Part shown: positions 57,171 through 59,565 of the stretch, one piece after another
Position numbering within the stretch: the stretch's first letter is position 1
How the letters are laid out: every line of letters begins with the position of its first letter
NCBI GenBank assembly: GCA_012798435.1
Contig: JAAZNF010000051.1
Location: 1-64,000, forward strand
Direction of reading: 5' to 3'
From: Myxococcales bacterium
GTDB taxonomy: Bacteria; Myxococcota; B64-G9
Length of the DNA stretch: 64,000 nucleotides
Notes under the pieces: model-generated
Databases searched by the model: none
What the model was told of the DNA's origin: nothing
Seen by the model: only the letters and a program-made list of their open reading frames with translations
Made by a program: the position numbers and the translations under genes

Positions 57171-57199
57171 TTGACAATCGAGCTTGGAAAAGGTAAGCT
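57171..57199 (+). promoter_or_regulatory. Promoter of the radical SAM gene
   Basis: TTGACA (57171-57176), 17 bases, TAAGCT (57194-57199). Only six bases lie between the -10 box and the ATG at 57206, so the mRNA should be leaderless. Confidence 0.6.
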
Positions 57200-57213
57200 G
57201 TACGCATGTACAG
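57198..57213. promoter_or_regulatory. LexA-box-like inverted repeat over the start codon
   Basis: CTGTACGCATGTACAG: 6-bp perfect arms around GCAT, matching the CTGT-N8-ACAG form of enterobacterial and beta/gamma-proteobacterial LexA boxes. It covers the last two bases of the -10 box, the predicted transcription start and the ATG. LexA sites in studied Myxococcota differ from this form, so the assignment is tentative. Confidence 0.45.
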
Positions 57214-58204
57214 TGGTCGCAAAGGCGTTGTACAAGACCTTCCGGCGCCTGATGGTCCCAAGGTCATCGGCGTCGAGGTGGAACGTGCCTTCGAGCGCCC
57301 GTTCAGGAAGTGCCAGCAAGGGATGTTGGTGTTGAACGTGGCCGCCGGCTGTTCGTTCGGTTGTCTGTTCTGTCCACTCAGCCACAGGCTCTCGCGGACA
57401 AACGAGATTCAGCTCAGGGTGAACCTGCCCGGCGTCCTGGAGCGCGAGATCCAGGCTCGGCGAAAGAACGGCCACCTGCCAGCGGCCGTCTTTCTCAACA
57501 CCACGACCGACCTGTTCCAGCCTATCGGCTCGCTCCTCACGGTCACGCACGAGGTGCTGCGCATCCTGCTCTCCGAAGGGCTGGAGGTGTCGTTTCAGAC
57601 CCGTGGGCTGGTACCGGAGGGGTTCGGCGAGCTGCTTGCGGCGTACCCGGGGAAGGTGCACGCCCAGGTTTCGATGTTTGCCATGAGCCGTGAGCTGACG
57701 CGGCTGTACGAGCCGGGGGCCCCCGACCCGTTGGAGCGGCTCGAGAGCATCCGGCGGCTCCTGAAGTGGGGCGTTGACGTGCGGGGACGCATCGAGCCTC
57801 TCATCCCGTTCGTCTCGGATACCGCTGGGCACCTGGATGAGCTCTTGCGCCACCTTCGCTCGGCAGGCGTACAGCGCGCCACCGCCGCCTACCTCGTGCT
57901 ACGGCCCCAGATCCTGGACCGGCTCCAGGAACTCTTGCCCATCGCTCACTATCATCTCATCAAGGGAAGCTTCCGGGGGCAGGCCTGGCAGAAGGAAGGG
58001 CTGTACTCCCAGGTGCGGATGCTGCCCCAGTCCACCCGCAACCAGGGGTACGAGCGCCTCCGGGCCGCCGCGCGCCGTGCGGACATGTCGATATCCGTCT
58101 GCGCTTGCCACGATCCCTCATCTGGCGAGTCGTGCTGGGAGCAGGCGGTGGCTACTCCCGGTGCCGGGAAGCGTGGCCAGCTCGATCTGTTCTCCCGGGC
58201 ATAG
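57206..58204 (+). CDS. SplB-like radical SAM enzyme
   Basis: 332 residues. The [4Fe-4S] motif CSFGCLFC (Cys49, Cys53, Cys56) is the Cx3Cx2C of radical SAM enzymes. The following half-barrel includes FLNTTTDLFQPIGSLLTVTHE and RLYEPGAPDPLERLESIRRL, the pattern of the SplB/Rv2578c group (COG1533), named after spore photoproduct lyase, a DNA-repair enzyme. A second Cys group lies near the C-terminus (VCACHDPSSGESC). Function of this subgroup is not established; DNA repair is supported only by the LexA-like site. It ends in TAG. Confidence 0.85.
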   Translation: MYSGRKGVVQDLPAPDGPKVIGVEVERAFERPFRKCQQGMLVLNVAAGCSFGCLFCPLSHRLSRTNEIQLRVNLPGVLEREIQARRKNGHLPAAVFLNTTTDLFQPIGSLLTVTHEVLRILLSEGLEVSFQTRGLVPEGFGELLAAYPGKVHAQVSMFAMSRELTRLYEPGAPDPLERLESIRRLLKWGVDVRGRIEPLIPFVSDTAGHLDELLRHLRSAGVQRATAAYLVLRPQILDRLQELLPIAHYHLIKGSFRGQAWQKEGLYSQVRMLPQSTRNQGYERLRAAARRADMSISVCACHDPSSGESCWEQAVATPGAGKRGQLDLFSRA

Positions 58205-58299: not shown

Positions 58300-59565
58300 G
58301 TGAAGCCGATCGTCTTCGGAAAAACCGACGTTGGGCGCAAGCGGGAGCACAACGAGGACGCGTTCTTCATCGACGAGGAGCTGGGGATCTTCATGGTGGC
58401 CGACGGCATGGGGGGGCACGCCGCCGGCGAGGTCGCCGCGGCCAAGGCGGTGGAAGTCATCCAGGGGCACCTGGCCGCCCAGGTCGAGCGCCTGGCTCAA
58501 TACCGTGCCCAACCAACGGTGGAGACGCGCGATCAGATCCTCGAGCTTGTCGAGGAAGCGGTGCAGAAGGCCTGCGGCGAGATCTACCGCCTGGCGCAAG
58601 AAAACAAGGCGCGCCACGGCATGGGCACGACGCTGTCGTTGCTGCTGGTGGCCGGCCAGGAGGCGTTCATCGGCCACGTAGGTGATTCCCGAGTGTACCT
58701 GCTGCGCGAGGGCCTCGTCCACCAGCTCACCGTGGACCACACCCTGATCAACGAGCAACTGAAGCGCGGGGTCATCTCCAAGGAGGAGGCCACCGCCGCC
58801 CGGTACAAGAACGTGATCACCCGCGCGGTCGGCATCCAGGAGCGGGTGCGAGTCGACACGTTGCACCTGGACGTGTTGCCGGGCGACCGTTTCATCTTGT
58901 GCAGCGACGGCCTGCACGGTTACCTCAAGCCGGGCGATGTCGAGAAGATCACCGGGAGTGCCCCGGCCGCGGAAATCCCCGAGCGCTTCATTGACCTGGC
59001 CAACCAGCGCGGCGGCCGAGACAACATCTCGGTCATCTACCTCGAGATGCCGCCGGGGGACGAGGAGGCCTCGCGCGAGGCCCGCCAGCGGCTGGAGACC
59101 ATGCGTAATGCGCCGCTGTTCAAGTATCTGAGCTATCGCGAGCTGGTCACGCTGGTGAACCTGGCGTACACCCGCAGCGCCCGAGCGGGGGAGCGGATCA
59201 TCGAGGAGGGAGTGACAGGCGACGAGCTGTTTCTCATCGTCAGCGGGAGCGCCCGGGTGCTCAAGGGGGAGCAGACCATCGCCAGGTTGGGGCAGGGGAG
59301 CCATTTCGGAGAGATGGCGCTAATCGACAACGCCCCGCGCTCCGCCAGCGTGGAAGCGGGCGAGCCGACCCGGCTGCTGGTGATCGGGCGCAAACCGTTC
59401 TACGACTACATTCGCAAGGACACCACCGCCGGTCTGAAGCTTTTGTGGAGCTTCTTGCAGATCCTCACCTTGCGCTTGCGCACGGCAGACGAGCGTCTGC
59501 GCGAGGCCCAGGAAGAGCTGGCCGTGCAGCAGGTCCAACCCGACTGGATCCTTCCCGACGATTGA
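58300..59565 (+). CDS. PP2C-type phosphatase fused to a cyclic-nucleotide-binding domain
   Basis: 421 residues, GTG start at 58300. PP2C motifs in order: VGRKREHNEDAF, VADGMGGHAAGEVAA, IGHVGDSRVYLL, ILCSDGLHGYL and GGRDNISVIYLE; the metal Asp residues are intact, so it should dephosphorylate Ser/Thr. From about residue 300 a cyclic-nucleotide-binding domain follows, with the phosphate cassette HFGEMALIDNAPRSAS. The C-terminal 35 residues are helical. cAMP or cGMP may control the phosphatase. Standalone by promoter; convergent with the PilZ gene. Confidence 0.9.
   Translation: MKPIVFGKTDVGRKREHNEDAFFIDEELGIFMVADGMGGHAAGEVAAAKAVEVIQGHLAAQVERLAQYRAQPTVETRDQILELVEEAVQKACGEIYRLAQENKARHGMGTTLSLLLVAGQEAFIGHVGDSRVYLLREGLVHQLTVDHTLINEQLKRGVISKEEATAARYKNVITRAVGIQERVRVDTLHLDVLPGDRFILCSDGLHGYLKPGDVEKITGSAPAAEIPERFIDLANQRGGRDNISVIYLEMPPGDEEASREARQRLETMRNAPLFKYLSYRELVTLVNLAYTRSARAGERIIEEGVTGDELFLIVSGSARVLKGEQTIARLGQGSHFGEMALIDNAPRSASVEAGEPTRLLVIGRKPFYDYIRKDTTAGLKLLWSFLQILTLRLRTADERLREAQEELAVQQVQPDWILPDD

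Follow-up and report, generated by a model that had tools for sequence, protein, structure and literature searches.

A divergent SplB-like radical SAM gene of a Myxococcales bacterium carries, across the end of its promoter and its start codon, a perfect palindrome that is very probably an operator for LexA, and taken as a whole the gene likely encodes a DNA-repair-type enzyme under SOS control. It lies within a window of 64,000 nucleotides, the whole stretch of DNA that was analysed, and its features are collected in Table 1. The operator sequence, the promoter, their conservation, the box held in common with lexA, recA1 and an imuB-like gene, the protein fold and the tail motif were all computed.

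Table 1. Features of the radical SAM gene and its surroundings in the 64,000-nt window
Feature	Position	Strand	Evidence or remark
-35 element TTGACA	57171..57176	+	sequence; unchanged in 8 orthologues
-10 element TAAGCT	57194..57199	+	sequence; TA--CT unchanged in 8 orthologues
Predicted LexA operator (SOS box) CTGTAC-GCAT-GTACAG	57198..57213		covers -10 end and start codon
SplB-like radical SAM protein, 332 aa	57206..58204	+	ORF; Radical_SAM PF04055 (6e-9); Foldseek
CxxxCxxC (C49, C53, C56), radical SAM [4Fe-4S] ligands	57350..57373	+	invariant in alignments A1 and A3
Invariant extra cysteines C299, C301, C310	58100..58135	+	with C36 at 57311-57313
QLDLF, predicted beta sliding-clamp-binding motif, residues 325-329	58178..58192	+	disordered C-terminal tail
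PP2C phosphatase with cyclic-nucleotide-binding domain	58300..59565	+	domain matches; downstream of radical SAM gene

Palindrome, promoter and start codon

The palindrome CTGTACGCATGTACAG (6 + 4 + 6, arms matching at 6/6) spans the end of the -10 element, the +1 position and the first three codons of the radical SAM gene, an arrangement over promoter end and ATG that the initial annotation had described and that was confirmed in the sequence. The -35 and -10 elements are separated by a 17-nt spacer, and six bases lie between the end of the -10 element and the ATG. Since the seven other orthologues keep this distance to their ATG or GTG and there is no obvious ribosome-binding site, the mRNA is probably leaderless. 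Control of the PafBC type need not be invoked, because the -35 element is canonical.

The class of the box had to be revised. It had been described as CTGT-N8-ACAG, the E. coli-type LexA box, but about 0.57 copies of this bare motif are expected in a 64-kb window, so its presence is not significant as such, and in the 5.05-Mb genome it is not enriched, with 9 sites against 25 for the reversed control; a pattern search of the 5.05 Mb placed none of the nine at lexA or recA, and the motif was rejected. The relevant motif is instead CTGnAC-N4-GTnCAG, the Myxococcota class, which is the class of the host SOS box and is shared by the window site. The 5.05 Mb contain five sites of the form CTGNACN4GTNCAG, and lexA and the window gene account for two of them. 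With a weight matrix trained on 18 SOS boxes, from which the family of the window gene was left out, the site scored 22.6 bits, more than the genome's own lexA box (21.2) and recA1 box (20.5); the runner-up position in the 64 kb reached 3.4 bits, and 1.28 Mb of Markov-simulated sequence gave no match reaching 22.6 bits.

The box is found at the same place in all eight family genomes with an orthologue (the window and seven others), between flanks that diverge, and the invariant columns of the eight-member DNA alignment are those of the -35 element, the -10 element and the box. TTGACA-N17/18-TAnnCT is kept in the seven others, with -10 variants TATACT, TATGCT, TATCCT and TACACT, and their proteins are 40–52% identical to that of the window (52% for a partial copy in G003). 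Against a LexA operator, the left half-site departs in relatives, reading CTATAC in four, CTGAAA in G005 and CTCAAC in G006. The palindrome might also be a by-product to which no repressor binds, left by a strong promoter and the conserved N-terminal MYS of a leaderless protein, since the -10 element and the first three codons, on both of which the box encroaches, may each be under constraints of their own. This is very improbable, given the behaviour of the codons: G006 has TTC in place of TAC, a Phe codon, yet a perfect LexA half-site GTTCAG; in G005, AGG replaces AGT (Ser to Arg) and TACAG is retained; and the G003 box does not share the reading frame of the presumed start. It is therefore the DNA rather than the peptide that is conserved, and the motif is the same as that at the lexA, recA1 and imuB-like promoters, all of which favours an operator.

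Two further features of the upstream regions were seen. A conserved CAAGAAAAAA lies upstream of the -35 element in L058, L060, L062 and L063 and is a possible UP element, although unclear in the window copy. More distant Myxococcota homologues, L072 (G010) and L074 (G163), have the LexA-like sites CTTGACGCATGTTCAG and CTGTACGCACATTCAG, respectively.

On the downstream side, the order of radical SAM gene and phosphatase is kept in most relatives examined. Despite this conserved synteny an operon is unlikely, as the gap between the two is about 95 nt and a ribosome-site-like sequence precedes the phosphatase, which probably has a ribosome site of its own; some read-through into the phosphatase gene may occur.

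LexA boxes in the source genome and its relatives

The SOS box of M. xanthus is CTRHAMRYBYGTTCAGS (PMC9705874). Upstream of lexA in the source genome is TTGACAT-CTGCACGCGTGTTCAG-C, and the box CTGCACGCGTGTTCAG fits this consensus at 17/17 positions; the window site agrees with it at 16/17 on the reverse strand, contrary to the initial annotation, in which known Myxococcota LexA sites were held to differ. recA1 has CTGTTCATTTGTTCAG over its promoter, and inspection of the region upstream of recA2 found no box. Sequences within one mismatch of CTGTACN4GTTCAG occur at nine places in the source genome, and five of the nine are promoters, namely those of lexA, recA1, an imuB-like Y-family gene, a TIGR03916 radical SAM gene and the window gene. 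The TIGR03916 match ('putative DNA modification/repair radical SAM protein') scored 314 bits, just below the model cut-off of 343.5. A LexA-like box, CTGTAAATGTGTTCAG, lies at the start of this second radical SAM gene of the same genome (C27, L106:1494-2651).

Six lexA boxes in the family, five of them from relatives, conform to CTGYAC-N4-GTTCAG, and that of G007, CTGTACGCATGTTCAG, is one base off the window site. Also against the LexA reading, no lexA turned up in G001 or G006 and just a fragment in G003, although these genomes are fragmented drafts. The pattern CTGNACN4GTTCAG gave 34 rows in the family against 12 in the control, and in relatives such sites stand upstream of lexA, imuA-like, dnaE2 and dinB genes (for imuA, dnaE2 and dinB a single case apiece was confirmed by HMM, the others being assigned by sequence similarity). 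The gene had been suggested to be of the SOS type, with lexA, recA, imuB and dnaE2 as the promoters at which to look for its box; the conserved palindrome and the same box class at lexA and recA1 support that suggestion, as far as sequence comparison reaches, and the box precedes the imuB-like gene in the source genome as well as imuA, dnaE2 and dinB in relatives.

It could be speculated that some other palindrome-binding repressor acts at the site in place of the main LexA, either a second LexA-like protein or an XRE regulator resembling DdiA, and relatives do offer examples of both. G008 (L035), alone among the relatives, encodes an additional LexA-like protein, with a separate palindrome, CCGTACAACTGTACGG, upstream, and G002 (L043) has an XRE-family regulator with the LexA-type box CTGTACTAATGTTCAG just upstream, recalling the DdiA of M. 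xanthus, which co-regulates the DNA damage response in that species (PMC12288472). Only a single gene with a LexA DNA-binding domain was found in the source genome, however, the box of that gene belongs to the same class, and the window site matches genuine LexA boxes in score, so a repressor other than LexA is an unlikely occupant.

The radical SAM protein and its tail

The protein had initially been placed in the spore photoproduct lyase group, and with respect to fold and CxxxCxxC motif this placement stands. Its AlphaFold2 model has a mean pLDDT of 82.9, and the top six PDB matches of the model in Foldseek are all spore photoproduct lyase (E 3e-12 to 3e-11); a PDB sequence search using the family alone gave no match. 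It is probably not that lyase itself, as the catalytic H-donor, Cys140, is not conserved: in a profile alignment, itself weak (E about 0.005), Cys140 is opposite Thr99, a variable position occupied by Ala, Leu or His in relatives, and for this reason the chemistry of spore photoproduct lyase is unlikely as well. Membership of PA0069 (NF033668) or Rv2578c (NF038135) was rejected too, since the NCBIfam scores of 59.7 and 78.8 bits are far under the curated cut-offs of 360 and 430 bits. Four extra cysteines, C36, C299, C301 and C310, are invariant in the family and absent from PA0069/Rv2578c relatives in the alignments, and could possibly form a second metal site.

Residues 315-332 have pLDDT values below 50 and are predicted to be disordered. 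QLDLF lies in this tail, although five-residue clamp motifs can mislead. The seven full-length orthologues all have its Q, L, L and F, and Q--L is kept in 15/15 relatives with 21–52% identity to the window protein (shuffled rate 0.0009), where it is the sole conserved part of the tail, mostly as QL[SD]LF. The 15 include PA0069/Rv2578c members of Sinorhizobium, Paracoccus, Legionella, Streptomyces, Tsukamurella, Sphingomonas, Aeromonas and a Myxococcus-like genus; two actinobacterial/sphingomonad relatives have the degenerate tails QESLF and QGELF. In three more distant radical SAM relatives, from Selenomonas, Monoglobus and Runella, the tail motif is absent. The L072 (G010) homologue ends in QLGLFKG. 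Several relatives in other phyla have the kind of LexA box used in their lineage (alphaproteobacteria GTTC-N7-GTTC, Streptomyces GAACATGTGTTC, Aeromonas CTGTATATATAAACAG), and CTGAACGSGCWTTCAG-like sites are found at relatives in 13 Myxococcus-like genomes. PMC4549789 uses QLSLF as the complete consensus for beta-clamp binding, and a search of the open-access literature found no paper linking clamp binding to SplB-like proteins. On this pattern, docking of the tail on the beta sliding clamp is somewhat favoured, and a consensus clamp motif at such a position suggests a clamp-recruited, lesion-processing enzyme.

Sequence does not reveal the substrate, and the lyase's Cys140 has no conserved counterpart; the gene could therefore be LexA-controlled and yet encode an enzyme that modifies tRNA, protein or some small molecule required once damage has occurred. 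We regard this as improbable, though less so than the other alternatives considered here: the closest structure is that of a lyase acting on DNA lesions, the clamp motif suggests work on DNA, and the co-regulated genes belong to DNA repair and translesion synthesis. A DNA lesion is the probable substrate.

Proposed mechanism and known systems

From these observations we infer LexA binding, induction, a leaderless start, clamp binding and the substrate, in the following scheme. In undamaged cells, LexA lying over the -10 element and the +1 position and start codon would block RNA polymerase. DNA damage would lead to RecA-stimulated self-cleavage of LexA and free the promoter, which would then give a probably leaderless mRNA for a radical SAM enzyme folded like spore photoproduct lyase. 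By its disordered QLDLF tail the enzyme would dock on the beta sliding clamp and so be brought to stalled forks and repair gaps, beside the translesion polymerases induced with it. At these places it would most likely reverse or modify a damaged base, by a 5'-deoxyadenosyl radical chemistry unlike that of spore photoproduct lyase.

In M. xanthus, direct action of LexA has been reported on only five genes, all of them regulatory (PMC9705874). The source genome shares the box class of that regulon and differs in having the box on repair genes too, the window gene among them, so that the predicted SOS regulon of Myxococcota is extended from regulators to repair genes also. With spore photoproduct lyase (PDB 4FHC/4FHD/4FHG) the protein shares the fold (TM-score 0.67) and CxxxCxxC, but has the variable Thr99 where the lyase has Cys140.

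SplB-like radical SAM proteins (COG1533) under SOS control are known from Bacteroidetes, alpha- and beta-Proteobacteria, Gram-positives and Balneolaeota (PMC8565304, PMC3323433, PMC7739468), and the regulation described here is not new in kind. The open-access literature yielded no experimentally established function for proteins of the PA0069/Rv2578c kind. As a radical SAM protein of the spore photoproduct lyase group with predicted LexA control, the window protein resembles the published examples; it differs in belonging to a divergent branch, found at this similarity in its own family only, with scores under the PA0069/Rv2578c cut-offs and with extra invariant cysteines. What appears to be new is this divergent Myxococcota branch, the overlap of a predicted operator with the start codon of a probably leaderless gene, and the putative clamp motif in the tail. 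The latter resembles that of beta-clamp clients with QLSLF, such as transposases (PMC4549789), in being a Q-L-x-L-F pentapeptide in a flexible tail. SplB-like radical SAM genes recur in SOS regulons across phyla, and the conserved, predicted clamp-docking tail would tie their products to the translesion machinery and suggests where they may act. It is about as likely as not that, more broadly, SOS-induced SplB-like proteins (the window family, PA0069 and Rv2578c) are clamp-recruited lesion processors working at stalled forks alongside ImuB and DnaE2, rather than free-standing photolyase look-alikes.
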